Shown in pieces: positions 1 to 23,724 of a DNA stretch of 24,272 nucleotides. Positions within the stretch are counted from its first letter, which is position 1. Every line of letters begins with the position of its first letter. The DNA is from a virus: positions 1 through 24,272 of IMG/VR virus record IMGVR_UViG_3300013129_000032. One strand, 5' to 3'. The notes beneath the pieces are model-generated. The model ran no database searches and was not told where the DNA came from. It saw nothing but the letters and a program-made list of their open reading frames with translations. The translations under genes and the position numbers were made by a program.

Positions 1-63
1 AGCGGCTATTTTGAGCGGCTTATGAGCAAAGAAGTTTGTGCCGAGATGGAAGAAAAACTCTAA
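1..63 (+). CDS. C-terminal end of an upstream gene (partial)
   Basis: The first reading frame is open from the window edge and ends at TAA (61-63), giving the last 20 residues of a protein, finishing EMEEKL. It lies one base upstream of the ATG of the polymerase gene, the same tight spacing seen throughout the window, so it is probably the preceding gene of the replication operon. The fragment is too short to assign a function. It could be a chance open frame, but the spacing argues for a real gene end. Confidence 0.6.
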   Translation, partial: SGYFERLMSKEVCAEMEEKL

Positions 64-64
64 A

Positions 65-1816
65 ATGAAACAATTCGCAACATGTCACTGTCATCCAGCA
101 TCGCTTGACTCTGGGTCTACGCCTGAGGCATTTGCAAAACGGGAGGTAGAACTCGGTAGCGGGGTTATCACCTGTACTGACCATGGGTCTCTGGCTGCAG
201 CCCAGGAGATTTATTCACTGGGTAAGAAATACAACCTACAGCCAGTCATTGGTCTAGAGGGATATTACCGAGATGACGACTGCCCCTTGCTAAAGGGGGC
301 TGGTATCGAAAAGACCGATACCGTGCCCAGGGGCATGGACAAGGAAAAATGGGTAGATGAGCACAAAGACGGTAGTTTCTTTGACTACTTGAAGTATCAG
401 CACATTACCACCCATTTTATGGATTACGACGCCTACACCACGGGCGTGCAGCTGCTTTCCAAAGCAGATGCACGAGCGGAGCGCCATGGTTCAGAGCGTA
501 AGCCACTGTTCGCGTGGTCTGATATCGAAGAGCTTGCCGCCAAAAACGTCACAGCAACGTCGTCTTGCCTCATCGGCATGATTCAGCGGCATTTATTCGA
601 GGCTAAACGCCCTGACATCGCCCAGAAGTATTTTGAGCGTATGCATCATTTGTTTGGCGACCGATTCTACGTAGAGGTCTTCCCCCACGTCTGCTCCCAT
701 AACTGGACCAAGGCAATTATTGTCACAACTCCAGAAGGCAAGCAGGAAAAGTTTTTCTTCACGAAAAAGCTGAAGACCTCAAGTAACATGCAATTGACGG
801 CAGAAGAACTTGAGGCGGTAATCAATGACCGGGGTGGCGAAAAAGTCACTATCGTCGAGGTAATGAACTACCGGAAGTGGACCCCTCTGGAGACACCTAT
901 TGTAGTGGCAAAAATCGAACGGAAGGAAGGCTTCTTCCGTAACGAGTGTTCCGATACGGCACCAGATGGCGATATTCAATTGGGCTGCAATAAATTCGTA
1001 ATCGAACTTGCACAAAAATACAACACAAAAATCCTCATTGCCGATGACTCACACTTCGCCCATCCACACGAGAAGGTGGCCCAGGACGTTCGCTTGGCTC
1101 AGCAGGGTAATTGGAAGTTTCATAACAGCTACCATCGCCAAAGTTCTAACGAAGCCTGTGACTACTTCAAAAACAAGCTAGGAATCGAGCAGTCACAATT
1201 TGATGCCTGGGTAGACAACACCCAGGAGTGGGCTGCACGCTTCAAGGGCTTCGAGCTGGATACCACCACGTCATTGCCCACCAGATTTTTTCCGTCTGAT
1301 TCGTTGGCACATACAAAGCGCCTCATTCTGCAGAAGGGGCGTCTGCCACGGGATAACCGGTATGTAGAGCGCCTAAAGCTGGAGATTGATATTCTCCATC
1401 GCAATGGCGTCATTGACCTCTTGCCCTACTTCCATATTGACGAAGAGGTCTGCCGAATATACGACAACCAGGGGTGGCTTACAGGCCCAGGTCGTGGCTC
1501 TGCCGCTGGTCTGTTGCTCTGCTACCTGTTGGGCATCACCCATATTGACCCAATTAAGCACGGTCTATCTCTAGACCGTTTCATTACCCTGGACCGCATC
1601 AAGTCTGGAAAACTGCCTGACATCGACCAAGACCTACCTTTTCGTGAACCTTTAGTTGGTAAAGAGGGTGACGATGTGATAGAGTTCCTGGTTGAGGATG
1701 GAACTAAGCACATTGTGCCTAAGGATTTTATCTTGGAGACAGAGCAAGGCAAAATGACTGCCCAACAAGCATTTGAGACCGGTGCCGACCTCATTCCTTT
1801 CTGGACCAATAAATGA
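65..1816 (+). CDS. dnaE: DNA polymerase III alpha (DnaE-type), N-terminal part of a split gene
   Basis: N-terminal part of a C-family replicative polymerase, 583 aa from ATG 65. A GTG at 38 would add nine residues, but the PHP domain begins at once after ATG 65. The PHP domain keeps likely metal ligands: HCH at residues 8-10, TDH at 38-40 and Glu65, followed by a family-typical ADDSHF motif. Next comes the palm: GPGRGSAAG, then PDIDQD carrying the first two catalytic aspartates (about D519 and D521). The family normally continues directly into the rest of the palm, fingers and beta-binding region. Here the chain runs on through about 60 residues of foreign-looking sequence and stops. The stop overlaps the next gene's start as ATGA, so the two are probably translationally coupled. 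Residues about 210-300 hold another insertion absent from ordinary DnaE. Identification is by motif recall; the split is read directly. Confidence 0.93.
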   Translation: MKQFATCHCHPASLDSGSTPEAFAKREVELGSGVITCTDHGSLAAAQEIYSLGKKYNLQPVIGLEGYYRDDDCPLLKGAGIEKTDTVPRGMDKEKWVDEHKDGSFFDYLKYQHITTHFMDYDAYTTGVQLLSKADARAERHGSERKPLFAWSDIEELAAKNVTATSSCLIGMIQRHLFEAKRPDIAQKYFERMHHLFGDRFYVEVFPHVCSHNWTKAIIVTTPEGKQEKFFFTKKLKTSSNMQLTAEELEAVINDRGGEKVTIVEVMNYRKWTPLETPIVVAKIERKEGFFRNECSDTAPDGDIQLGCNKFVIELAQKYNTKILIADDSHFAHPHEKVAQDVRLAQQGNWKFHNSYHRQSSNEACDYFKNKLGIEQSQFDAWVDNTQEWAARFKGFELDTTTSLPTRFFPSDSLAHTKRLILQKGRLPRDNRYVERLKLEIDILHRNGVIDLLPYFHIDEEVCRIYDNQGWLTGPGRGSAAGLLLCYLLGITHIDPIKHGLSLDRFITLDRIKSGKLPDIDQDLPFREPLVGKEGDDVIEFLVEDGTKHIVPKDFILETEQGKMTAQQAFETGADLIPFWTNK

Positions 1817-4260
1817 AGATACTTGCTATCACCAATAGCTCTGAGACTGGTACTTTACCAAAAAACTATCCAGGGTGGTTCGAGGACCGGTTTGGTGAGT
1901 ACTATGCCCAAATTTCAGTTGACACCACCCTGAAGGTAAAATCTGCGGTCAAGGACGTTTCGCGAGCTTGCCGCAAGATTTGTAACAAGTGTGGTGAATT
2001 GCACGTCACTCAAGAGCCTATCTCAGAGTGTAAAAAGTGCGGCGGGCACGTTACTGGCTACGTGCCTCCAGACATTGAGCAGCTGACAAAGAAGTTCTAC
2101 AATCCGCCTCAGGGTGTCGATGACCACCAATTCTGCGTAGGTTACACCCTGGACGGCTCTTGGGTTAAGGGTAGTTCCGAGCCAGGCCACGGTGGCACTG
2201 ACGAAGCCTTGTGTACCTACATCGAGCGTTATCCTGAGGACTGGGAAATTGTTAAGTCGTGCATCGGTCTACCTCGCCAGAAGGGGCGACACGCCTGCGC
2301 CTATCTAATCTCCAACAAGAAAATTTCATCATTCGTGCCACTGACCTCTGTCGGTGGTTACAATGTCACCGCTTTCACGGCTGAGGGTGTCGAGGGTGTT
2401 GGTGGCATCAAGATGGACTTCTTGGTTATTAACTCTCTGCGAGATATCCAAGACTGTATCCGCCTGATTCAGGAGAGACATTCAGGTACATATAGCGACA
2501 AAATCGCCAAACACAAGACGGTGTTCTCGATTGACGGTACGCAAACGTACGACATATGGGACCTGCCCGACGACCAGAAAGTGTTTGCCGATATTACGGC
2601 TGGCAACGTCGAGTCAGTGTTTCAGCTTGCCAAGGCAGCACGGTGGCTGAAGTACTTCGACTATAAAAAGATTGACGGGTCGCACGCTATTTCATCTGTG
2701 CGAGACCTTGCAGCATTCACCGCACTTGACCGCCCAGGTCCTCTTGACGTTATGGTCAGTGACCCAGAAACAGGAATCGGCCACAATGCTCTCATCGAGT
2801 ACGCCAGACGTGCTCGTGGCCTTACTCCAAGCCCAGACATTCTGCCAATCTTGGAGACAATGCTACCAGAGACGTATGGCATTTTGTGTTTCCAGGAACA
2901 GCTGCAGGCCATTTACCAGAATCTGACAGGATGCTCTGGTAGCGATGCAGAAGAGTTCCGCAACAGCGTTGCCAAGAAGAAGAAGGACAAAGTTGACGCA
3001 GCATTTAGTTTCTTTGTCGAGAATGCATCTAAGCAGATTGGTGAAGAGAATGCCCATAAGATGTGGGACTTCCTCAAGACCTGGGCTCAGTATGGATTCA
3101 ATATGTCACACGCGGTATCTTACGCAGTCATTGCTTATGCGTGCGCGTGGCTGAAATTCTACTACCCTCTTGAGTGGTGGTGCTCGGTCCTCAAGAATGC
3201 AGATAAAAACGACATCAACGAAAAATTCTGGGTCCAGTGCTCGAAGTTTATTTCCCTGCCAGACCTCACAAAGTCAACCCACTATTGGGAAATCCACGGC
3301 GACAAGGTTGTCGCACCAGTTGGTTTGCTCCACGGCGTTGGCGAGAAGGCAAACGAGCAAATTTCCCAGTATGCGCCATACGTCTCCATGCAGGATTTTG
3401 TCTCGAAAATCGTGGCACATCGAGAGACTGGTCTCACGTCATCTGAGGTAGACGGCAAAACAAAGTACACCCTTGCCAAGAACTCAATCAGTCGAACACA
3501 CGTATATTCGATGATTGTGGCAGGCGTGATGGACAGCCTGTTTGAAGAGCAAATTTCAATTATTGAGAAATTGGAAAAGTTTGACAATGCGATGATAGAG
3601 GCGTACGCTCAGAAAATTGAAGAAGCGAGAATCCCAGAACTGAAGAAGACCTGGAAGACAGCATTGACCCAGGCCAAGAACGCAAAGAAGACAAACTATG
3701 CACTACTCGACTCCATCGGTAAATATCAAGCACGCAAAAAAATCCTGCCTGCATACGGTGAAGACCTTCGCGCAGTCGTCAAACCGCTGATTGAAGAGTT
3801 TGAGTGTCTGTCTCTCCTGGATAAAGACCAGCCGAGAATGAGGTACAGGTGGAAGGCCTGGAATCGAGATACAAGGATTAACGAGTCGAAAGAATGCCCA
3901 GTTATTGATCTGGTGACGTACGAAAAAATTGAGGCAGCACAGAAGATGCCAAATGGCGGATACATGTGTGCCGCACTTGGGTATATCGAAGATAGAGATA
4001 TCTTCAATTACCAGTCTACAAAAGAGGCAATGAGCCTGTTGGTAGATATCGGCGGGTCAAAGAAACGACTGGTAATCTGGCCTTCATATGACACAGGAAA
4101 ACTGAAACAAGAAATCAAAGACGAGGTTAAGAAGGGCGCTGTAATGGCCTTTCTGCTGCACATTCGTGAGCCTGGACAGGGCTTCAGCATCAAGAAATAT
4201 TCAACCATTAGAGAGCCACTTAAGCTAAAGGCAGAAGAAGAAGATGAGCAAGAAAAATAA
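1813..4260 (+). CDS. dnaE: DNA polymerase III alpha (DnaE-type), C-terminal part of a split gene
   Basis: C-terminal part of the split polymerase, 815 aa. After about 20 unmatched residues it resumes the DnaE fold at GWFEDRFGEYYAQI, followed by the KSAVKDVSRA segment. Cysteines C57, C60, C73 and C76 (C-x2-C-x12-C-x2-C) form a probable zinc ribbon. KMDFL at about D202 matches the family KFDFLGLRT motif that supplies the third catalytic Asp. Further landmarks in order are DRPGPL, YGILCFQEQLQ, FNMSHAVSYA (family FNKSHAAAYA), a helix-hairpin-helix-like HGVGEKA, and a C-terminal OB-like domain from about residue 700. The frame is closed by TAA at 1810-1812, so translation must begin at ATG 1813. 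The active polymerase presumably needs this chain and the upstream product together. The 3' end overlaps the next gene by 17 bases. Confidence 0.93.
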   Translation: MKILAITNSSETGTLPKNYPGWFEDRFGEYYAQISVDTTLKVKSAVKDVSRACRKICNKCGELHVTQEPISECKKCGGHVTGYVPPDIEQLTKKFYNPPQGVDDHQFCVGYTLDGSWVKGSSEPGHGGTDEALCTYIERYPEDWEIVKSCIGLPRQKGRHACAYLISNKKISSFVPLTSVGGYNVTAFTAEGVEGVGGIKMDFLVINSLRDIQDCIRLIQERHSGTYSDKIAKHKTVFSIDGTQTYDIWDLPDDQKVFADITAGNVESVFQLAKAARWLKYFDYKKIDGSHAISSVRDLAAFTALDRPGPLDVMVSDPETGIGHNALIEYARRARGLTPSPDILPILETMLPETYGILCFQEQLQAIYQNLTGCSGSDAEEFRNSVAKKKKDKVDAAFSFFVENASKQIGEENAHKMWDFLKTWAQYGFNMSHAVSYAVIAYACAWLKFYYPLEWWCSVLKNADKNDINEKFWVQCSKFISLPDLTKSTHYWEIHGDKVVAPVGLLHGVGEKANEQISQYAPYVSMQDFVSKIVAHRETGLTSSEVDGKTKYTLAKNSISRTHVYSMIVAGVMDSLFEEQISIIEKLEKFDNAMIEAYAQKIEEARIPELKKTWKTALTQAKNAKKTNYALLDSIGKYQARKKILPAYGEDLRAVVKPLIEEFECLSLLDKDQPRMRYRWKAWNRDTRINESKECPVIDLVTYEKIEAAQKMPNGGYMCAALGYIEDRDIFNYQSTKEAMSLLVDIGGSKKRLVIWPSYDTGKLKQEIKDEVKKGAVMAFLLHIREPGQGFSIKKYSTIREPLKLKAEEEDEQEK

Positions 4261-5044
4261 AGAAGAGAAGCAAGAGGCAAAACAACAAGAGCCAGAGGTA
4301 GAATCACAGAGCCCAGTACCGGCACTGATTGCTGCCATCAAGGCAGCACAAATTGTGGTAGACCGACCAACGTCTGAGGTTCCCTACTCGATTAAGAGCG
4401 GTTACGAAGTCATACGTGAACAGTCTCGCGCCAGTGTGAAAGAAGACAAAGAAAAACTTTTGCAACTCACTGTCCCCAACCGATTGATTGGTGTGTTCCT
4501 TGATGGAGACGCCTCGAAGCTCGCAGAGGTAGACCTGTTTGTGCGAGAGTCCTCCATTGTCATGCAGGGAGACTATCCATTCACAATCTTCACGGATGCA
4601 GTAGAATTGACCTACGGCCAGCCGGTGGACGACCTGCCCCAAAATGCCCGCTATCAGCCCACTTTTAGTACGTCGCAGTATATTGCTTTGACCAATGAAA
4701 TCAACAGGTTGGCTAGTAATTTTGATGTTGATGGGGACATTGTTTCGACTCTTAATCTTACACCTGTAGTAAAGAGGGTAGACCTCAGAAACGCAATCGC
4801 AAATCACATCCTGCCTTTGGCAAACAAACTGTTGACAGCAATTTATCGTGCTGATATCGTAAACCAAACAATCACAAAAAAATTGACAAATGACCGAGTT
4901 CCGGTATTTGTCCTTAATACACCAGACCCCAGAGTAAAAGAACTCATCGAGGGGCTTTTCGCCAGAACGGCATCTGAAATTCTCGACCCATCGTTCACAG
5001 TGAACAAAGAAAACATCGTTGAAATCATCAAGAAAGCAAAATAG
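4244..5044 (+). CDS. Unknown protein after the polymerase
   Basis: 266 aa; function not recognised. The N-terminal 25 residues are Lys/Glu/Gln-rich and probably disordered. The rest looks globular and mixed alpha/beta, without cysteine clusters, membrane segments or a Walker motif. The start ATG 4244 lies inside the end of the polymerase gene (17-base overlap), implying coupled translation. Position between polymerase and SSB suggests a replication accessory role, for instance a polymerase-associated factor, but no clamp or clamp-loader signature is visible. Codon use and spacing match its neighbours, so the gene itself is secure. Confidence 0.85.
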   Translation: MSKKNKEEKQEAKQQEPEVESQSPVPALIAAIKAAQIVVDRPTSEVPYSIKSGYEVIREQSRASVKEDKEKLLQLTVPNRLIGVFLDGDASKLAEVDLFVRESSIVMQGDYPFTIFTDAVELTYGQPVDDLPQNARYQPTFSTSQYIALTNEINRLASNFDVDGDIVSTLNLTPVVKRVDLRNAIANHILPLANKLLTAIYRADIVNQTITKKLTNDRVPVFVLNTPDPRVKELIEGLFARTASEILDPSFTVNKENIVEIIKKAK

Positions 5045-5058
5045 AGGTAATAAAAACC

Positions 5059-6081
5059 ATGAGTAACATCGAAAACAATGAAATGCCGGAAGGCTTTGCG
5101 GACCCCAATTACGGAGGGGCACGCTTCCAAAACTGGTCCCTGGAGAAGGACAGCACCGCTGTTTTTCGTATTCTCCCTGCAATGAAGAGCTTGGTCAAAG
5201 GGCGTGACTACACCACCTTTTGGCACACCTACTTCTGGCAAGGTCGCGATGCGAAGGGTAAGGTTCGAGGCATCCCAATCCTCTGCACTCGCGAGCGCGA
5301 ATTTCAGTTCGGCAAGTCCACTGTCACTAAAGAGTGTCCCCTCTTTGTGAAGCGCCAGAAACACCTTGACCGTATTGAGGAAATCAAGGCAATTGGCAGG
5401 CAGAAGAACGCCTCTGAAGCGCAAATCAAGAAGGCGCAGGCACCTCACACTCAGTGGCTGAAAGACCACGGCTACGACGGGAAGTATCGTGTGTATGCCG
5501 TCAATCAGCGTGGCGAGCTTGGTGTGTTGCGTCTCAACACGCAGGCCATGAAGGCACTTCGCACGAAGGTGAAGGCTCTCATTCAGGACGGCTACACCCC
5601 GATGGGTGTTAAGGGTGTCTGGTTTGAGTTCACTCGCACTGGCAACGGCTTCGGTACTCCAGACACGGTTGATGTGCATCGCACCAAGCGTCCTGATGGC
5701 TCTGAAGTCATTGCCACTCACATTCTCGACAAGAGGCTGGCACAGGAGGCTCTTGCCGTCCTTCCAGACTTCGAGGCAGAGAAGGCGAAGATTCGTTACT
5801 CGGATGAGCAGTTGCAGCAGATTGCTGACCTGGAGGATGATAATCCCGACGAGGTGTCTCGCATTCTCGGCATCAAGGCAGAGCCAGTCGATGAAGAGGC
5901 TACCTTCCTTGAAGAAGGTGCAACACCTGCAGAGGAAGACCTCTTTTCAATGGCTTCTGACGAAATCAAGACGCCAGCGAAGGCAGCAGCAAAGCCTGCA
6001 GCAGCAAAGGCTGTAAAGCCAGCTGCAGCAGCTGAAGAGGTTTCAAACGACGAGTTTGAAGCCGAGTTTAACGCAATCTAA
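5059..6081 (+). CDS. Probable single-stranded DNA binding protein
   Basis: 340 aa. The N-terminal core (about 10-240) has an opening of the kind seen in phage gp32-like SSBs (a short lead, then TAVFRILPAMKS, aromatic-rich YTTFWHTYFWQG, and two cysteines in ILCTRE and KECPLF). The tail is typical of SSB architecture: an acidic stretch (about 255-300), an Ala/Lys/Pro-rich flexible linker (about 305-328), and an acidic, aromatic end, DEFEAEFNAI, of the sort that docks partner proteins. Position between the polymerase and a RecA-like recombinase supports the role. A clear ribosome binding site, AGAGGTAA, lies just upstream of ATG 5059. A strong terminator follows, so this gene ends the transcript. 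Family assignment rests on architecture and context rather than a diagnostic motif. Confidence 0.65.
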   Translation: MSNIENNEMPEGFADPNYGGARFQNWSLEKDSTAVFRILPAMKSLVKGRDYTTFWHTYFWQGRDAKGKVRGIPILCTREREFQFGKSTVTKECPLFVKRQKHLDRIEEIKAIGRQKNASEAQIKKAQAPHTQWLKDHGYDGKYRVYAVNQRGELGVLRLNTQAMKALRTKVKALIQDGYTPMGVKGVWFEFTRTGNGFGTPDTVDVHRTKRPDGSEVIATHILDKRLAQEALAVLPDFEAEKAKIRYSDEQLQQIADLEDDNPDEVSRILGIKAEPVDEEATFLEEGATPAEEDLFSMASDEIKTPAKAAAKPAAAKAVKPAAAAEEVSNDEFEAEFNAI

Positions 6082-6092
6082 TTAACCTGTGC

Positions 6093-6152
6093 CCCGTCTG
6101 TTGGTGTGATGTTTGTGGTGTTGTTTTTTTACACCAACAGACGGGCTTTTTT
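6093..6152 (+). terminator. Rho-independent terminator after the SSB gene
   Basis: CCCGTCTGTTGGTGT (6093-6107) is perfectly complementary to ACACCAACAGACGGG (6131-6145), a 15-bp stem with a 23-nt loop, followed by C and six T (6147-6152). It lies between SSB and the following gene, whose GGAGAG ribosome binding site (6153-6158) starts directly after the T-tract. Confidence 0.92.
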
Positions 6153-6164
6153 GGAGAGCTTTAA

Positions 6165-6746
6165 ATGTCTATTGATTCACCTATTGGAAAATACATTGTT
6201 CCCGCTGGAGACGGAGTAGGCAACCCAATCCTTTTGGATATCGCAGCGGTGGTTGCGGCGGAAGTCAGGTTGCAGGAAGTTGCTCAAACTAATTCGCACA
6301 ATGCGGCTGAGTTGTTGAGTTGCTTTGCAGACAATTGGGGTAAGTTGAACAGAACTATCACCCTGTTGACCCATGAACGGAACGTAGCAAAGCACCATCG
6401 CGATATTGCCTATGCCGAAGCACTTCTTGGTGCAGATGCAGAGCTTGAGAAGCGCAAAACAAAGTCGTCGAAGGAAATGCGCGAAGCTGTCGCAGAAGTC
6501 AACCCACAGGTTAGGGCTGCGACTGAGAGACTGAATGAAATTATCACAGTCCTTTCATACATAGGAGGAAAGGCTCTTGAGTTCCAGAATGCGTACAACT
6601 CTGTAAAGAAACTGATTTCAGAGCGTTCAAGCTGGCAACCCAATCAACCTCTTCATTCACCACAACCTTCTGAGTCGAAAGACTCGGGCGATGACGACTT
6701 TGAGATGCCAGCAGGATTCGCAAACCCACACGCAAACAGGTACTAA
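6165..6746 (+). CDS. Unknown helical protein, possible recombination mediator
   Basis: 193 aa. Mostly helical with heptad-like spacing from about residue 50 to 155, rich in Glu, Lys, Asn and Ala; then a Pro/Ser-rich linker and an acidic end, DDDFEMPAGFANP. That last motif nearly repeats the N-terminus of the SSB (EMPEGFADP). GGAGAG at 6153-6158 supports ATG 6165. It sits between SSB and the RecA-like gene, with only two bases before the latter. In T4 the small mediator UvsY links gp32 and UvsX; size, helicity and location fit such a role, but I see no sequence match and this is inference only. Confidence 0.85.
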   Translation: MSIDSPIGKYIVPAGDGVGNPILLDIAAVVAAEVRLQEVAQTNSHNAAELLSCFADNWGKLNRTITLLTHERNVAKHHRDIAYAEALLGADAELEKRKTKSSKEMREAVAEVNPQVRAATERLNEIITVLSYIGGKALEFQNAYNSVKKLISERSSWQPNQPLHSPQPSESKDSGDDDFEMPAGFANPHANRY

Positions 6747-6748
6747 AA

Positions 6749-7909
6749 ATGGCAAATAAATGGGCAGAACAACTTAAGAAGTTGGATGGTGCAGTGAAAG
6801 AGCGGGTAGACCGCTTTTCAAAAGTCATCCGAACACCGTCACCTTCCGTGAATTTTATTTACGGCAAGACGCATGGGCTACCTCTTGGATACTCTACACT
6901 CTTGTGGGGTCCACCTGGAGGTGGTAAATCACTGTTGACCAATGCCACCATTGGGCAGCTGCATCGAGACGACCCTGAGGCAATTGTCATCAAGTTCGAC
7001 ACCGAATTTCGTGATGATGGTCAAATGTCGGTCGATACTCTGAAGTCGCTCGGGGTTGACCTTGACCGGTACATCGTCTTCGAGGTAAATCGAGCTGGAG
7101 AGGTTTTTGACACAATTGCAGGTGAAATCAATGCAATGTGCCAGAAGGGCGCTCCAGTCAAGATGGTCATTGTTGACTCTATCAACGGTATTCAAGGCCG
7201 ACGAGAAGCAGAGCTTGAGACCGTCGAAAAGCACACAATTGGCGACCACGCAATGACGATGCAAGTTGGCTTGAAGAAAATTCTCCCAGTCCAACGACGC
7301 AACAATTTCCACCTTGTGCTCTGTTGTCAGCAGCGAGCAGAAATGGATATGCTGGAGCAAAAACGAGGCAACAAGACAAAAGCAGCAGCGAGCTTCGGCG
7401 TCCTCCACCACTGTGAGTATTTTGTTCACGTTGAGCGGAATAAAAACAAGGCGGGACGTACTGACGAGCTTGGTAATGCGTTTGAAAATGAGGCTCGTAA
7501 AGACGTTTCAGACACTGCAGATATCACCGGTCATAAGGTGGCAGTCTGGATGCAAAAATCATCGGTTGGCCCTGCAGGGCGTTCTGGTGAGTTCACGATT
7601 GACTATGCCAATGGTGTAGTAAATCAGCATGAAGAGGTGTTCCGTCTCGGTACTCGGTGGGGAATTATTGAGCGCATCAATAACACCACTTATTCCGTCG
7701 ATGGCAAGAAGTTCACTGGCAAGCCAGCTTTGCTGAACGGGCTTCGTGACTCTGTGGACCTGCAGAAGTTCGTTGTCAAGCGTCTCCTGGAGGAAGAGAA
7801 AAATTCCAAGTTCCAGGTAGGAAGTGGCCCCAGTGACAATATTCTGGACGCTCCAACTGACACGGACGACGATGTGGAAGAAATGCTAGAGAATAGCGGA
7901 GACGAGTAA
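6749..7909 (+). CDS. uvsX: RecA/UvsX-like recombinase
   Basis: 386 aa RecA-fold strand-exchange ATPase. Walker A GPPGGGKS is at residues 54-61, the KFDTEFR strand with the likely catalytic Glu follows near 82-88, and Walker B MVIVDS is at 139-144 with NGIQGRR after it. QQRAEM near residue 190 may correspond to the L2 region. An acidic C-terminal tail (about 365-386) resembles regulatory tails of RecA and UvsX. It would coat single-stranded DNA, displacing or cooperating with the SSB, for recombination-dependent replication and repair. The gene starts two bases after the preceding stop and ends at a terminator hairpin. The gene symbol is given by analogy with T4; cellular recA-like origin is possible. 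Confidence 0.9.
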   Translation: MANKWAEQLKKLDGAVKERVDRFSKVIRTPSPSVNFIYGKTHGLPLGYSTLLWGPPGGGKSLLTNATIGQLHRDDPEAIVIKFDTEFRDDGQMSVDTLKSLGVDLDRYIVFEVNRAGEVFDTIAGEINAMCQKGAPVKMVIVDSINGIQGRREAELETVEKHTIGDHAMTMQVGLKKILPVQRRNNFHLVLCCQQRAEMDMLEQKRGNKTKAAASFGVLHHCEYFVHVERNKNKAGRTDELGNAFENEARKDVSDTADITGHKVAVWMQKSSVGPAGRSGEFTIDYANGVVNQHEEVFRLGTRWGIIERINNTTYSVDGKKFTGKPALLNGLRDSVDLQKFVVKRLLEEEKNSKFQVGSGPSDNILDAPTDTDDDVEEMLENSGDE

Positions 7910-7916
7910 AAACAAA

Positions 7917-7958
7917 AATCAAGGGGCTGTGAATGATTCATGGCTCCTTGATTCTTTT
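7917..7958 (+). terminator. Hairpin terminator after the recombinase gene
   Basis: Arms AATCAAGGGGC (7917-7927) and GCTCCTTGATT (7943-7953) pair over 11 bp with one G-T wobble. The intervening bases can continue the stem through TGAAT/ATTCA, giving one long hairpin with a very small loop. CTTTT follows. The short T-run makes it weaker than the terminator after the SSB gene. The rest of the gap to 8006 shows no clear promoter. Confidence 0.75.
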
Positions 7959-8006
7959 GTGCGGTTGTGTTAGGGTTCGTTTTGTAGGTCTGTCTGGAAT
8001 TTTCTT

Positions 8007-9485
8007 ATGTCTGCCAAAACCGAAGAATTTACAAAAATACACCAACAGGCAGTAATCGGGCACGCGCTGCAAGATTCTGAGTTTGTTCGCCAGCTTGATG
8101 CCATCGAGGTTAACAAAGACTGGTTTGCCACGACATCTGCGGTTCTGGTAGAACTGTGGTCCATCTTTGGTAAGTTCCGCGACAAATACAAACGGCCTCC
8201 CACGTTGCTTGAGTTTGAGGCCTTTGTCAGTACGCATGGTTCTGATAACACAGCCAGCCTTGCTAAGGCAGCTAGTGAGTGTGTCGGCATCGCCAATAAA
8301 GTAGGCATGGACATTATCCAGTCCAAGCTGACCAACTGGGCAAAGAGCCGCTTAATTGTCTCCCAGGCGATTGAGCTTAGTACTGCATTCAATGCAGGTC
8401 AGTACCAAATTGCCTACGAACTCTGGGAACAGGGTGCAAACAAGCTCCAGAAGCTGGACTCGACCCTTGGCCTTACTCCAGACGCCATGGAGTCAATGGC
8501 AGACCGCGTTTCCAGGGAGAAGTCTGAGCGTTACAAAGAGAACCTTAAGCCATTGGCTTACGGTGTCAATTTTCTGGACGATTCACTGATTCAGATTGCT
8601 CGCAAAGACTTGATTGTTATTGGGGCACGTACCGGCGTCGGTAAGACCGAAATAGCAAAAATCGTCGCCAAGTGCAATGCCGAAAGGGGTTTCCGAGTTA
8701 GTGCATTCTTCCTCGAAGCTGAGGAAAATGAAATCGAGCGGCGTATCAAGTACAACCTTTTGCTAGAGAGATTCCTTGACGAGAATCCAGGCACGGGCGA
8801 TTGCTTTGGCTATGCCGAGTGGCGTCTGGGGCGCTATAAAGAGACGTTGGATAAGTTCTCCGATGAAGTGGACGAAGAAATCAAGAAAAAATACTCGACT
8901 CTCAGTACGTACTACCGTGTGCGCGGCGACTTTGATATCGACACACTTGACCGAGAGGTCATGAAGGTCCACAAAAATTCTGACCTTATCATCATTGACC
9001 ACTTGCACTACATTGACCTCGACGGCAAGGACAGCAACAAGAACGACGAAATGGGCAAGCTGTTGAAGAAGTTGCGCTACCTAACCCTCGTGCTAGGTAT
9101 CCCCATTTTATGCATTGCCCACCTACGTAAAGGTGCATCTAAGAACATTGTCCCAGAGCTTGACGACTTCCATGGCTCTTCCGAAATCACAAAAATTGCC
9201 ACCACTTGTATCATGCTTGCACCTTGCAAAGAGTTTGTGTGTTCAGACCCAGACCAAGACATTTCCAGTGCTACATTTATTCGAGTTGCTAAGTTCCGCC
9301 TCGACGGTTCACGCACTGGCTACGTTGGGGTTGGATTTTATGACAGGAATAGGGGCATGTACTCGCAAAAATATTCTATTGGGCGTTTGAATTTTGCAGA
9401 GACAAAGTGGATTCCATTAAAGGCAATGTGGCCTTACTGGTCAACTGAGGCTAACCTTATCAAAGAGGTTCAAGAGGCTGGCTAA
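8007..9485 (+). CDS. dnaB: DnaB-like replicative helicase
   Basis: 492 aa RecA-fold hexameric helicase. The N-terminal region (about 1-170) is helical and probably the oligomerisation and primase-contact domain. The C-terminal ATPase has Walker A GARTGVGKTE at 206-215, the Glu-containing FFLEAEE strand at about 234-240, Walker B LIIIDH at 327-332, an AHLRKG arginine/lysine motif near 371-376, and the DnaB H4-like motif ELDDFHGSSEI at 384-394. It would unwind the fork ahead of the split DnaE polymerase. No primase domain is fused to it and no separate primase is visible in the window. The stop overlaps the next gene as TAATG. Confidence 0.92.
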   Translation: MSAKTEEFTKIHQQAVIGHALQDSEFVRQLDAIEVNKDWFATTSAVLVELWSIFGKFRDKYKRPPTLLEFEAFVSTHGSDNTASLAKAASECVGIANKVGMDIIQSKLTNWAKSRLIVSQAIELSTAFNAGQYQIAYELWEQGANKLQKLDSTLGLTPDAMESMADRVSREKSERYKENLKPLAYGVNFLDDSLIQIARKDLIVIGARTGVGKTEIAKIVAKCNAERGFRVSAFFLEAEENEIERRIKYNLLLERFLDENPGTGDCFGYAEWRLGRYKETLDKFSDEVDEEIKKKYSTLSTYYRVRGDFDIDTLDREVMKVHKNSDLIIIDHLHYIDLDGKDSNKNDEMGKLLKKLRYLTLVLGIPILCIAHLRKGASKNIVPELDDFHGSSEITKIATTCIMLAPCKEFVCSDPDQDISSATFIRVAKFRLDGSRTGYVGVGFYDRNRGMYSQKYSIGRLNFAETKWIPLKAMWPYWSTEANLIKEVQEAG

Positions 9486-10072
9486 TGCGTAAGAAGAAAA
9501 AAAACTTCGAGGAACACACAATTGTTGAACTCAATCCCAAGTATCGGGAGTTATATCTGTTTGGGCCAATTGATACGCCAACGGCTGGCGAACTAATTTT
9601 CCACCTGCGACAGCTGGACCGCACGCGAGGTCCAATCCAGCTTGTGCTCTCTTCCCTCGGTGGCGAGGAAGGTGCAGGATGGGGCATTTACGATGCAATC
9701 AGAACGGCTAACAACGATGTGCATTGCTATGCCTACGGTGAGTGTCAGTCAATTGCTACCCTGATTATCCAGGCCTGCAAGACTCGGATGCTTTCAGAGA
9801 ACACCCGCTTTATGATTCACAACGGTGGCGTAGCGGCAGACATGACGACCAACCAGGTAATTGCCCTGGCGAAAGAGGTAGAGGCTCTGTCAGCTATGTA
9901 CTACTCCACCCTTTCCCTCCATTCTGGTGTTCCAGCTGAGGAAATTCAATCCCTCTGTGCAAACGACTACTACATGTCTGCAGCGACTGCAGTACAGAGA
10001 GGTTTTGCAGATGGAATTATCAAAAAGAATAATAATGTGAGAAGCAGAAGGGGTAAGAAGCGTGCTAAATAA
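9485..10072 (+). CDS. ClpP-like serine peptidase
   Basis: 195 aa, the usual size of ClpP. The conserved substrate-binding strand is seen as LSSLGGEEGAG (about 55-65). The full triad is present: Ser89 in YGECQSIAT, His112 in MIHNGG, and Asp161 in CANDYYMSAATAVQRGFADGI, which copies the ClpP arrangement around its Asp. There is a short basic N-terminus and a basic tail, and no signal peptide. Phage ClpP-like peptidases often act in capsid maturation, but this one lies between the helicase and a membrane protein, and another protease candidate occurs in the head block. Its role could be turnover of phage or host proteins; no partner unfoldase is visible here. It overlaps its upstream neighbour by one base and its downstream neighbour by 11. 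Confidence 0.9.
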   Translation: MRKKKKNFEEHTIVELNPKYRELYLFGPIDTPTAGELIFHLRQLDRTRGPIQLVLSSLGGEEGAGWGIYDAIRTANNDVHCYAYGECQSIATLIIQACKTRMLSENTRFMIHNGGVAADMTTNQVIALAKEVEALSAMYYSTLSLHSGVPAEEIQSLCANDYYMSAATAVQRGFADGIIKKNNNVRSRRGKKRAK

Positions 10073-10673
10073 GAAGACTGCAATTATAGCTATCGTAGCA
10101 ACAATCGTACTGGCAGGTGCATTCACGGCAGGCCGATATACTGCGCCCACCAAGGTCAAGACTGTGGAGGTTGAGAAGCGTGTTGAGATTCACCACGAGA
10201 CCAAGCAGACTACCGTGAACCTGGAGGAAATTAAGACGCTAATCACCCAGATGACTGCCTCAAAGAAATCCAACCTGCAGAGGACCACCACCACGACCGT
10301 CAAGCCTGATGGAGAGAAAACCATTACAGAGACGGAGATTGACAAGAGCGAGACCAGCACCCAGACCAATACCAATTCGTCCTCTCAGACTAAGTTGAAT
10401 GTGGACGAGCTTGTGAAGCTCTGGAAAGAGAGTACAGTCGAGAAGGTCAAGATAGTCGAGAAGGAAGTAGACAGGCGTCCCAAGTGGTCTGCAGGTGTTC
10501 AGCTTGGCTTGTCTCTGACCGACCCACTTGGCAGCACAAAGCCAGTCATACCTATCCCCGATCAAATGATTTTAGGGGTGTTTGTTGAACGAAATTTGTT
10601 TTGGGGTGTCAATCTAGGACTATGGGCAAATAGTAGGCTTGATGGAGGCATTCAAGCCAGAATCGGATTCTAA
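10062..10673 (+). CDS. Membrane-anchored protein with a beta-rich C-terminus
   Basis: 203 aa; not recognised. GTG 10062 is chosen because AGGGGTAAG lies just upstream. Residues about 6-25 form one hydrophobic segment after a short basic end, a signal anchor that would place the rest outside the cytoplasm. Then come charged heptads (VKTVEVEKRVEI), a Thr/Ser/Lys-rich low-complexity stretch (about 65-110), a second charged helix, and an amphipathic C-terminus ending in GGIQARIGF that resembles alternating beta strands. An inner-membrane or spanin-like role is conceivable, but no lysis cassette surrounds it. It overlaps the ClpP-like gene by 11 bases. Confidence 0.75.
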   Translation: MLNKKTAIIAIVATIVLAGAFTAGRYTAPTKVKTVEVEKRVEIHHETKQTTVNLEEIKTLITQMTASKKSNLQRTTTTTVKPDGEKTITETEIDKSETSTQTNTNSSSQTKLNVDELVKLWKESTVEKVKIVEKEVDRRPKWSAGVQLGLSLTDPLGSTKPVIPIPDQMILGVFVERNLFWGVNLGLWANSRLDGGIQARIGF

Positions 10674-10674
10674 A

Positions 10675-11691
10675 ATGGACAGCTTGATAAATAGAGGCAA
10701 TGTACCTGGATGGACCAATCTCGCAATCGGTGAAGCTACCGTAGTGAGAGAGGCATACGCAATTGCGCGGAACCGCCCGGTAGACTGGGTGGCAGAAGAC
10801 ATCGCATACCCTCAATGCGAGGGGCTTCCGCAGCTGACGAAGGCTATTATGGCTTACTCAATCGCCAACGGTATCTGTGACGAGGACCACCCTGGTCACG
10901 TAGTGGTTACCAATGGAGCGACCCAGGCCTTGTTGGCAGCTATTCACCAGTACAAGAAGGTCTACGCAGAGGCACCCTACTGGCCGAGAATCCCTGTCTT
11001 GGCTGGCGACAAGTTCACCTCTGTGTCACCTGACAAAAAATACTTTGACGGTACTGTCTCTGTCGTCACCTTCCCTAATAATCCAACCGGCAATGACGAT
11101 GGGGTCCACCTTCCAGGTGAGTCGATAATTTGGGACTCGGTGTATGCATCTGATATTTACGGTTTTAACCAAAACTCAGAAGAGGCTCAGTCGCTTAAGC
11201 GGGCAGATGTTATAATCGGCTCAATGTCCAAGGTGTTTGGCATGTCTGGTCTTCGGGTAGGTTGGGCAATCTTCAGAAAGCGGGAAGAGGCTGAACTGGC
11301 TGCAAAGTACGTTGAGACCACCACGTCAGGCGTCTCCACGTTGTCACAGCTGATGGCAATCGATATGCTTGAGCACAACATGAAATTCGAGGTCATTTAC
11401 AAGAAGGTGCGCGAGTCCATCAGGAACACGATTTCTCAGAATGCTGCAGCAATTAAATCCGTGCTGCCTCAATGCCATATGGATGGCGCACTTGGTAAGA
11501 GTGGCGGTATGTTTGCTTGGATTAATGCCACGGACGATGCTGACCGTTTCAAAAATGCATTTAATGCCGCAAAGGTGTTCGTTGTTCGTGGCGACGCATG
11601 TGGGGTATCAAATAACTACTTCCGCCTCAACTGTGCTGCATCTACCCTGGCTGTCAGAGAGGCTGTAGAGAAGCTGAAGAAGGTATTTTAA
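10675..11691 (+). CDS. PLP-dependent aminotransferase (class I/II, fold type I)
   Basis: 338 aa from ATG 10675, two bases after the previous stop and right at the usual family beginning (TNLAIGE). An ATG at 10642 and a TTG at 10639 would add only an unlikely tail. All hallmark residues are present: NGATQAL phosphate-binding region (80-86), NNPTGN (135-140), D154 and Y157 in WDSVYAS, Schiff-base Lys186 in SMSKVFGMSGLRVGW with Arg194, and the carboxylate-binding Arg317 in YFRLNCA. It is shorter than the usual 390-400 residues. The stretch around SKVFGMSGLRVGWAI resembles the alliinase/TAA1 branch as well as class I enzymes. The substrate is unknown. An enzyme of amino acid metabolism is rare in phages; base hypermodification or an auxiliary metabolic role are possibilities. 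Confidence 0.92.
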   Translation: MDSLINRGNVPGWTNLAIGEATVVREAYAIARNRPVDWVAEDIAYPQCEGLPQLTKAIMAYSIANGICDEDHPGHVVVTNGATQALLAAIHQYKKVYAEAPYWPRIPVLAGDKFTSVSPDKKYFDGTVSVVTFPNNPTGNDDGVHLPGESIIWDSVYASDIYGFNQNSEEAQSLKRADVIIGSMSKVFGMSGLRVGWAIFRKREEAELAAKYVETTTSGVSTLSQLMAIDMLEHNMKFEVIYKKVRESIRNTISQNAAAIKSVLPQCHMDGALGKSGGMFAWINATDDADRFKNAFNAAKVFVVRGDACGVSNNYFRLNCAASTLAVREAVEKLKKVF

Positions 11692-22020: not shown

Positions 22021-22799
22021 TTCTCACCATCATTAGCGACACGCACAACAAACACCACCAGCTCAAGCTGCCTGGTGGTGATATACTAATTCACGCAGGA
22101 GACTGCACTAGAAATGGAACCCTCTCGGAGGTTGAGAACTTCCTTCAGTGGCTATCGGTACAGCCTTACGAGCGTAAGGTATTTATTGCCGGTAATCACG
22201 ACATGCTGTTTCAGCAAAGGCCGGTCAGGTCCAGAAGGCTCTTGAAGAAGTTTCCAGGTATTACCTACCTGCAGGACAGTGGTGTCACGATTGGTGGGCT
22301 CCATATATATGGCAGTCCGTGGACGCCACGTTTTGGTTGCTGGTCCTTTACCCTCGACCGGTGGGGCGATAACCTAGCGCATAAATGGTTTAATATACCG
22401 AAAGACGTGCATGTGTTGCTTACACATGGGCCACCATACGGAATCCTCGACACGGCGTATAATAACCACTGTGGGTGTGAGATATTGGCAAACGTGTTGA
22501 AAGACTTGAAGCCTCTCATTCACGTATTTGGTCACATCCATGAGTCTCCAGGCATGGTCGGATTCTATTCAGACACGCTGTCAATCAATGCCTCCATGGT
22601 TGAGCATCACAGTGAGAGAATCACGCGCAAGCCAATCAACATTTTAATTACAGAGATAATTGAAGAGACTTGTCAAGAAAATTCTGACGTGGTAGCTTCA
22701 AAGAAGTTCACTTATTCAATAATTGAGGAAGAAAACAAAAATGACGACGATGACCTTCGTGACAGTGGTGCGGTTCCCCAGGGTGGGGAAACATCCTAA
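22017..22799 (+). CDS. Calcineurin-like metallophosphoesterase
   Basis: 260 aa, starting at TTG 22017 with GGAG at 22003-22006; the stop of the previous gene overlaps it as TTGA, and the SDTH motif follows within ten residues. Ligands in order: D8 and H10 in SDTHN, D29 in IHAGD, N60 and H61 in AGNHD, H137 in THGPP, H173 and H175 in GHIH. The compact arrangement resembles the MPPED/UPF0046 type, which includes cyclic-nucleotide phosphodiesterases, rather than Mre11. The last 20 residues (NKNDDDDLRDSG and onward) are low complexity and overlap the RNA ligase gene. Adjacent RNA ligase suggests action on RNA ends, for instance removal of a 2',3'-cyclic phosphate; this is inference. Confidence 0.9.
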   Translation: MILTIISDTHNKHHQLKLPGGDILIHAGDCTRNGTLSEVENFLQWLSVQPYERKVFIAGNHDMLFQQRPVRSRRLLKKFPGITYLQDSGVTIGGLHIYGSPWTPRFGCWSFTLDRWGDNLAHKWFNIPKDVHVLLTHGPPYGILDTAYNNHCGCEILANVLKDLKPLIHVFGHIHESPGMVGFYSDTLSINASMVEHHSERITRKPINILITEIIEETCQENSDVVASKKFTYSIIEEENKNDDDDLRDSGAVPQGGETS

Positions 22800-23724
22800 T
22801 GCAGATACCCTATCAATTGGTAATGTATATGACTTCCCGGTCATTGTAAGGACTGGCGACTTCGTGGAGGGACAGTTGTGTGTATATGTCCCCGTTGAGG
22901 CAGTTGTCCCCACAGGTCCAGGCCCATTTGAGTTTCTGAGTAACGGCAAGAGTCCTACTGCCCGAATCAAGGCTAAGAAAATCCGTGGCATTTTCTCTAT
23001 GGGGGTAGTCGTCCCTGTGCCTGAGGGTTTGGGTCCTGTCGTCGAGGGTCAGGATGTCACCATGGATATGGGTATCTTTAAGTATGAAGAGCCTGAGCCC
23101 ATCATTCTCAGCGGAGAACAGAGTGCTCCTCCTAGCTCTGCCAGAATCAATACCAGCGCATACGGTGTTGAGAACATCCGGCGCTGCCCTGATGCGATTC
23201 AACCTGGAGAGGATGTCTACGTCACAGAGAAAATACATGGTAGCAATGCACGGTTTGTCTATTCGTCGGAGGACGATAAGTTCCATGTTGGCAGTCATCA
23301 CTGTTGGTGGAAAGAGAAGGAAGGAAATCTGTGGTGGAGGGCTGCACGCCAGTACGGACTGGAAGATATCTGCCGAGCAATGCCTGACACTACCATTTTT
23401 GGCGAGGCTTTCGGCAACCAGGACCTGAAGTACGGACTGCAGAATGGGAAAATTGACTTTCGGGTGTTTTCAATTGTTGATAAATACGAGCCTTACCATT
23501 TTAGTAAAGTGGTTTCTACTTGTGAGGCTATCGGACTGCCTGTTGTGCCGGTTCTGTATCAAGGCCCCTTCGACCTCGCTCTGGTCAAGTCTCTGATCGA
23601 GTGTCCATCCACATTTGACAAAAATCAAATCATGGAAGGCGCTGTAATCCGGTCCTCTAAACATACACTAAAAATCCATTCTGAGAAGTATTTATTGCGA
23701 AAAAACGGCACAGAACACAAGTAG
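22741..23724 (+). CDS. RNA ligase, Rnl5 (Deinococcus DraRnl)-like
   Basis: 327 aa from ATG 22741, supported by AGGAAG at 22726-22731. An N-terminal OB-like domain (about 4-130: VRFPRVGKHPNADTLSIG through RIKAKKIRGIFSMGVVVP) precedes the nucleotidyltransferase domain, the order known for the Deinococcus enzyme. Motif I is EKIHGSN with nucleotidylated Lys164; FGEAFGN matches motif III; EGAVIR (about 299) is motif IV; LKIHSEKYLLRK (about 311-322) is motif V. Size also fits. The Deinococcus enzyme seals 3'-OH/5'-phosphate nicks with a preference for RNA at the 3'-OH side. In a phage it may reseal host tRNAs cut by anticodon nucleases. It overlaps the phosphoesterase by 59 bases in another frame. 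Confidence 0.9.
   Translation: MTTMTFVTVVRFPRVGKHPNADTLSIGNVYDFPVIVRTGDFVEGQLCVYVPVEAVVPTGPGPFEFLSNGKSPTARIKAKKIRGIFSMGVVVPVPEGLGPVVEGQDVTMDMGIFKYEEPEPIILSGEQSAPPSSARINTSAYGVENIRRCPDAIQPGEDVYVTEKIHGSNARFVYSSEDDKFHVGSHHCWWKEKEGNLWWRAARQYGLEDICRAMPDTTIFGEAFGNQDLKYGLQNGKIDFRVFSIVDKYEPYHFSKVVSTCEAIGLPVVPVLYQGPFDLALVKSLIECPSTFDKNQIMEGAVIRSSKHTLKIHSEKYLLRKNGTEHK

Follow-up and report, generated by a model that had tools for sequence, protein, structure and literature searches.

Two open reading frames encode one DnaE polymerase

The DNA analysed here, referred to as the window, is a viral stretch of 24,272 nucleotides (IMG/VR record IMGVR_UViG_3300013129_000032, positions 1 to 24,272). Near its start, the DNA polymerase DnaE (Pol III alpha) is encoded in two consecutive open reading frames, p1 and p2. 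The N-terminal half p1 matches the Pfam families PHP (4e-17) and DNA_pol3_alpha (first part, 1.1e-20), and the C-terminal half p2 matches the rest of DNA_pol3_alpha (2.9e-12) and DNA_pol3_finger (4.4e-17). PHROGs assigned both as DNA polymerase, with p1 and p2 covering successive parts of one profile. Hence, the PHP domain, the palm with three catalytic aspartates and the fingers of a DnaE are all present, distributed over two proteins.

Two of the aspartates are located on p1 and the third on p2, as a sequence-only reading of the window had claimed and as the alignment with the unsplit DnaE of Myxococcus phage Mx1 bears out. The residues D519 and D521 of that reading correspond to D528 and D530, its numbering implying an ATG start nine codons after the GTG start. 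The overlap of the p1 stop and the p2 start as ATGA, also claimed, is present and makes translational coupling of the two genes plausible, though not necessarily their equal synthesis. A zinc-ribbon-like insertion (CxxxCxxC...CxxC) in p2, at 1969-2043 of the window, is shared with the relatives L010 and L011 and is absent from Mx1 and the other aligned relatives.

The split into two frames is confirmed as genuine. Another IMG/VR contig, listed separately, matches the window at 99.9% identity over 9.3 kb and has the same junction; the first 6 kb contain no difference, the nearest being located at ~6.1 kb. Because this second assembly agrees at the junction and the break recurs in 14 distinct phage loci, the split is not an assembly error. 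The frame change at the junction, with its overlapping stop and start, could be read as a sign of a decaying gene or of misassembly, but the two assemblies are concordant and both frames are open in 14 lineages, in agreement with the earlier statement that the split is no decay. Furthermore, no other DnaE and no polymerase of the Pol A or Pol B family was found in six contigs, namely the 36-kb twin of the window and five large relatives of 107-169 kb (completeness unstated). Decay or assembly error is thus extremely improbable.

Position of the break and additional residues

In BLASTP comparisons with the Mx1 DnaE, homology continues through LPFREPLV (51% identity for p1 up to residue 543) and picks up again at GWFEDRFG (37% identity for p2 from residue 21 on). 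The gene had been described as broken immediately after PDIDQD; the break itself is real, but its position is further downstream, and it is flanked by additional residues, ~52 at the end of p1 (the tail) and ~20 at the beginning of p2 (the head), where Mx1 has only a short loop. This extra sequence, which was not considered in the sequence-only reading, is probably the means by which the two halves recognize one another. Conserved terminal additions at the break that are missing in the unsplit enzyme are also a feature of tail-assembled fragmented enzymes of the kind of NrdA from Aeromonas phage Aeh1. The features at the break are summarized in Table 1.

Table 1 Features of the split DnaE gene in the window (aa, amino acids)
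Feature	Position	Strand	Remarks
p1, DnaE N-half: PHP and first part of palm/NTPase domain, tail at the end	38..1816	+	592 aa, GTG start
PDIDQD with catalytic D528 and D530	1616..1633	+	Sequence; aligns with PDIDMD of unsplit Mx1
p1 tail (52 residues), not present in unsplit relatives	1658..1813	+	Comparison with Mx1 and unsplit loci; kept in 14 split loci
Intein-homologous core of the tail, 43 residues, equivalent to about residues 55-98 of the Npu DnaE N-intein (block B region)	1670..1798	+	
ATGA, p2 start overlapping p1 stop	1813..1816	+	Sequence
p2, DnaE C-half: remaining palm, fingers, later domains	1813..4260	+	815 aa
p2 head MKILAITNSSETGTLPKNYP	1813..1872	+	Alignment of heads; L010 model
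Third catalytic Asp, D202 in KMDF (p2)	2416..2418	+	Sequence; aligns with KMDF of Mx1

Split and unsplit relatives

Relatives were gathered by scanning viral contigs with alignments of p1, p2 and the tail, which returned both unsplit and split loci. Unsplit phage forms, for which a search had been proposed, thus exist, e.g. in Mx1 and in further viral contigs. Fourteen distinct split loci were obtained (the window, L010, L011, L012, L020, L022, L023, L024, L026, L036, L049, L050, L052 and L054); L022 and L023 are close to each other (branch lengths ~0.04), and some additional contigs are near copies. A related tail ends p1 and a related head of 14-24 residues begins p2 in all 14 loci.

The spacing of the halves differs among the loci. 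They overlap by ATGA or similarly, are adjacent in frame in L010 or are one base apart in L036, whereas in some relatives, in contrast to the overlap in the window, other sequence separates them (420 to 1250 bp in L011, L020, L022 and L050). L022 encodes between the halves an Endonuclease_7 protein of 141 aa (PF02945, E 1.6e-11), its gene overlapping both neighbours by ATGA; in the near twin L023, this gene is cut down to 81 aa. The window and several other split loci have no endonuclease gene at the break.

The junctions also bear on a programmed frameshift or stop read-through, by which one fused chain would be made and the split would be only apparent. In support, the p1 stop of L010 shares the frame of p2, and the two frames of the window would be united by a -1 slip at AAATGA. 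Opposed to this are the lack of a recognisable slippery heptamer and the variable geometry of the junctions, with intervals that may or may not contain other frames, so that we assign a fused product next to no probability.

In a tree of the extein parts (a quick, unrooted reconstruction with the split group defined beforehand), the split loci formed three clades, and a single split clade was rejected by the approximately unbiased test (p 0.0003). The window is located in a clade of nine members, in which the split is old and long branches separate the members. Gain and loss of the split are not separable in this unrooted tree. An active intein at the exact break site was found in none of about 80 more DnaE loci, and none of 101 pattern matches in GTDB genomes was confirmed.

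The tail is homologous to DnaE-type N-inteins

The p1 tail and the C-terminal half of DnaE-type N-inteins are homologous. In a search of the PDB sequences with a profile of the 14 tails (hmmsearch), the top 14 matches were all DnaE inteins (E 5.9e-5 to 0.003), aligned in one common intein region; as these entries represent one family, they count as one independent match, not fourteen. A profile of 10 tails retrieved DnaE inteins at E 0.003-0.015, amid a few unrelated matches of similar rank. The alignment of the tails with N-inteins of related phage DnaEs, picked out by eye from the sequences of the relatives, reached in hhalign a probability of 96.8 (P 2.5e-10, 43 gapless columns) and a score of 51.5, compared with a maximum of 16.7 among 150 column-permuted tail alignments. 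The closest relatives of the tail found are the split N-inteins of L019 (E 9e-9) and L018 (E 1.4e-8), both matched by the hidden Markov model of the tail. When 11 phage contigs were scanned with the tail profile, each yielded one strong match, the p1 tail; there were also four weaker matches (E 5e-4 to 0.014), three of them real inteins within p2 (L022, L020 and L024).

The fourth weaker match lies off the tail in p1 of L036 (G007:C1:9430-9531, minus strand, E 8e-4) and is possibly due to chance. Searches with single tail sequences gave no credible match in Pfam, NCBIfam, PDB or annotated phages. The best tblastn matches, fragments of pyruvate phosphate dikinase and PdcB of phage P1, had E-values of 0.1 or worse and were on checking attributed to chance.

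Inteins occur in several loci of this DnaE family. L018 (6001-9361) and L019 (6001-9362) contain DnaE split inteins at RHA/C; in both, the halves are separated by a frame for an HNH-like endonuclease. The phage DnaE of L042 (7573-11240) has an apparent split intein with an intervening frame of 362 aa without Pfam match; this intein ends at HN/CFNYSHS, in the same gene region as the cyanobacterial DnaE split intein. More inteins are located at several other sites, in p2 of L020, L022, L024, L025 and L026 and in p1 of L049, and a long frame overlaps the intein in L022 and L024.

Structure models of the relative L010

The stop of p1 in L010, being in frame with p2, allowed the junction to be modelled as one chain, with the stop as one residue. 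For a piece of 300 aa (27 alignment rows), AlphaFold2 (AF2) gave a mean predicted local distance difference test score (pLDDT) of 78.8 and predicted four strands and a helix for the tail and a strand for the head. Foldseek listed Pol III/PolC structures first for this model and inteins from rank 18, with Npu DnaE aligned over 63-66 columns at 2.6-3.2 Å (probability 1.00). A piece of 795 aa (44 rows) was modelled with a mean pLDDT of 84.0, a predicted template modelling score of 0.77 and pLDDT values of about 87-95 in tail and head; here, inteins followed directly after polymerases, at E-values of 0.18 and above. The rows of the larger model were chosen by script for correct placement of the heads, the tails and the GWF helix and hence constitute a selected alignment. 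Earlier MAFFT alignments of the half chains, in which p2 rows were set on p1 or the head was misplaced, were dropped, and a four-letter-code fusion of L036 was left out as second bridging row.

According to these models, tail and head would form half of a Hint fold. Two attributes of a split intein are thus present in the tail: it is homologous by sequence to the C-terminal half of the N-fragment, and it is predicted to adopt part of a Hint fold. The first ~9 residues of the head were modelled as a beta strand (E300-308 of L010, pLDDT 92-94) at the position of strand 1 of a C-intein.

Loss of the splicing residues

The extein motif LPFREPLV leads straight into the segment resembling block B. 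Cys1 and block A are gone, block A being present in 0 of 14 loci. The Thr-x-x-His of block B is lost in all 14 tails, with P, S or R at the Thr position and F, A, Q or D at the His position; in the window tail, these catalytic residues are replaced by Pro and Phe. The heads contain neither block F/G nor an ending of (H)N followed by Cys, Ser or Thr, and no conserved Asn, the head Asn being exchanged for A, R, H or another residue in several relatives. Because Cys1, block A, the Thr and His of block B and block F/G are all gone, canonical protein splicing of the window halves is excluded as judged from their sequences. The absence of a Cys or Ser at the tail start and of HN at the head end had been correctly recognized before. 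An intein alignment over the junction with proper splice residues had been named as an observation that would speak against an unspliced polymerase; intein homology was indeed found there, the splice residues were not.

An active, unusual split intein that ligates the chains without Cys1 or the block B His would be consistent with the true intein origin of the tail, with the N-S pair in some heads (residues 8-9 in the window) and with the existence of non-standard nucleophiles in class 3 inteins (PMC11766414). However, it would have no block A for the attack on the N-junction, where the extein runs directly into block B, and no block F/G. The replacement of the block B residues in 14 of 14 tails contrasts with the retention of the His in all eight inspected real inteins of the relatives, and the head Asn varies among the relatives. 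We therefore consider ligation by such an intein very unlikely.

Selection on the tail

The tail is under purifying selection. Two close pairs, L012/L024 (dN 0.10, dS 0.90) and L022/L023 (dN 0.016, dS 0.147), gave ratios of nonsynonymous to synonymous substitution rates (dN/dS-like estimates) of about 0.1; more distant pairs were saturated. This observation weighs against a plain gene fission, in which the halves meet through the own interface of the palm, and tail and head are leftovers without a role. In its favour, the natural interfaces of the palm and finger domains are large, a minimal Pol III alpha is split in jumbo phages (PMC7824862), and in another large group of phage DnaEs the break lies about 200 residues past PDID, without an intein-like tail in the three members inspected. 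Nevertheless, 14 lineages have retained both tail and head, purifying selection acts on the tail, and unused tails would be expected to decay or vanish in a clade with a split as old as that of the nine-member clade. A plain fission is therefore unlikely, though less so than the alternatives treated above.

The three inspected members of the differently split group, L067, L083 and L127 (about 4193-7976), stand for many similar loci in L066-L133. Their DnaE is split beyond the third aspartate, and a gene for a DnaQ-like exonuclease is located between the halves.

A retired split intein as putative clamp

The reading that we favour, and consider likely, is that a retired split intein serves as non-covalent clamp for a palm of two chains made by coupled translation. 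An element of the split intein type would have entered a variable loop of the DnaE gene just after the catalytic PDID strand, and would subsequently have lost its endonuclease, the N-terminal lobe including Cys1, both catalytic residues of block B (Thr and His) and the C-terminal HN/C block. p1 would still carry the C-terminal half of the N-intein and p2, probably, strand 1 of the C-intein, and these remnants would act as permanent non-covalent clamp between the proteins. The coupling through ATGA may yield both chains side by side, and these would fold jointly to one palm with two aspartates from p1 and one from p2. As suggested in the sequence-only reading, a split without splicing implies that the palm is put together from two unjoined chains; that free p1 and p2 associate, that the clamp is needed and that the enzyme is active is what we infer.

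In active split inteins, the regions kept here as remnants are part of the interface by which the fragments recognize each other. We take the retained tail to be the docking part of the N-intein fragment (IntN) in the capture-and-collapse sense. The charge of the tails (-5 to -10) is in the range of that of the matching part of Npu DnaE (-8). Association of active split inteins proceeds via a disordered anionic part of IntN and a cationic C-intein fragment, IntC (PMC11766414).

Several observations weigh against this interpretation. The tail diverges more than the palm, with 46% versus 91% identity between the window and L010. The head is probably the first strand of a C-intein, an assignment resting mainly on its position and the model; by sequence, it aligned with C-inteins over 5 columns (P 0.023), and 2 of 150 permuted controls scored higher. 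With a charge of -1 to +4, the heads are only weakly basic or neutral, so that docking by electrostatics, as in inteins, may apply only in part. The models of L010, in which the chains are joined by the read-through stop, bear on the fold of tail and head and not on the association of free chains, and the modelled sequence is that of L010, not of the window.

As an extension of the clamp interpretation, a homing endonuclease gene between two intein-derived clamp halves could represent a mobile unit without splicing, able to break an essential gene while the clamp reassembles the protein. The three separate split clades with homologous tails at the same site, together with the gene of the Endonuclease VII family still present in L022, would agree with such a unit; a single early gain followed by reversions to the unsplit gene, or active split inteins that decayed repeatedly, would fit as well. 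We regard the mobile unit as tentative and rather doubtful.

Comparison with known split genes and enzymes

The cyanobacterial DnaE split intein (Npu, Ssp) shares with the window the host gene family and the break into two genes. Homology connects the tail with the C-terminal half of the cyanobacterial N-intein, and the L010 model overlays Npu DnaE. In contrast, the break in the window follows PDID and is not in the Y/CFNKSHS region, about half of an intein is kept without splicing residues, and the halves remain separate. The previously drawn distinction from the cyanobacterial system therefore holds for position and activity, and fails for ancestry.

Phage metagenomes reportedly contain fractured genes in which a split intein is combined with a free-standing endonuclease gene. 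L018, L019 and probably L042 show their order of N-half, endonuclease gene and C-half together with an intein of the active type, and L022 shows it with the remnant (Endonuclease_7). Whereas the known inteins of fractured genes splice, the remnant described here cannot.

The tails of NrdA from phage Aeh1 are said to act as interaction domains. This system, in which NrdA is split into NrdA-a and NrdA-b by mobE (reviewed in PMC2988022), resembles the window in that an essential phage replication enzyme consists of two proteins with an extra tail and head at the break, that the break is tied to a homing endonuclease gene, and that function is kept without splicing, activity being presumed for the window. 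Host gene and endonuclease family are different, and the tail profile had no match to NrdA-a and only noise to NrdA-b, so that homology to the Aeh1 tails was not detected. Split phage enzymes assembled without splicing are already known from Aeh1 NrdA, T4 topoisomerase and gp43 of Aeromonas phage 25 (PMC2988022). The last is likewise a phage replicative polymerase in two proteins, gp43A and gp43B, which co-purify and are active; unlike DnaE, it belongs to family B, and no relation to inteins was reported there (PMC2988022). The two proteins of the split minimal Pol III alpha in jumbo phages are also thought to reconstitute one enzyme, but are encoded by distant genes as a minimal version beside a family B polymerase, with no intein-derived tails described (PMC7824862).

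Other genes of the window

Further downstream, the window encodes a ClpP-family protease (9485-10072) and a class I/II aminotransferase (10639-11691), in a region of phage genes from replication to head. A protein with an RNA ligase domain and a PHA02142 OB-fold domain is encoded at 22723-23724.

Implications

A description of intein remnants as joining parts was not found in the literature searched, which left most subscription journals out of reach. If the favoured interpretation is true, the DnaE of the window and its relatives would represent a natural split intein that outlived its chemistry and was retained as assembly clamp, and would reveal a route from the insertion of a mobile element to a permanent two-subunit enzyme. 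It would also be a replicative polymerase whose catalytic aspartates are supplied by two chains. Tail and head would be a short pair of association tags that evolved naturally, and a single family would permit a side-by-side comparison of intact genes, active split inteins and clamp remnants.

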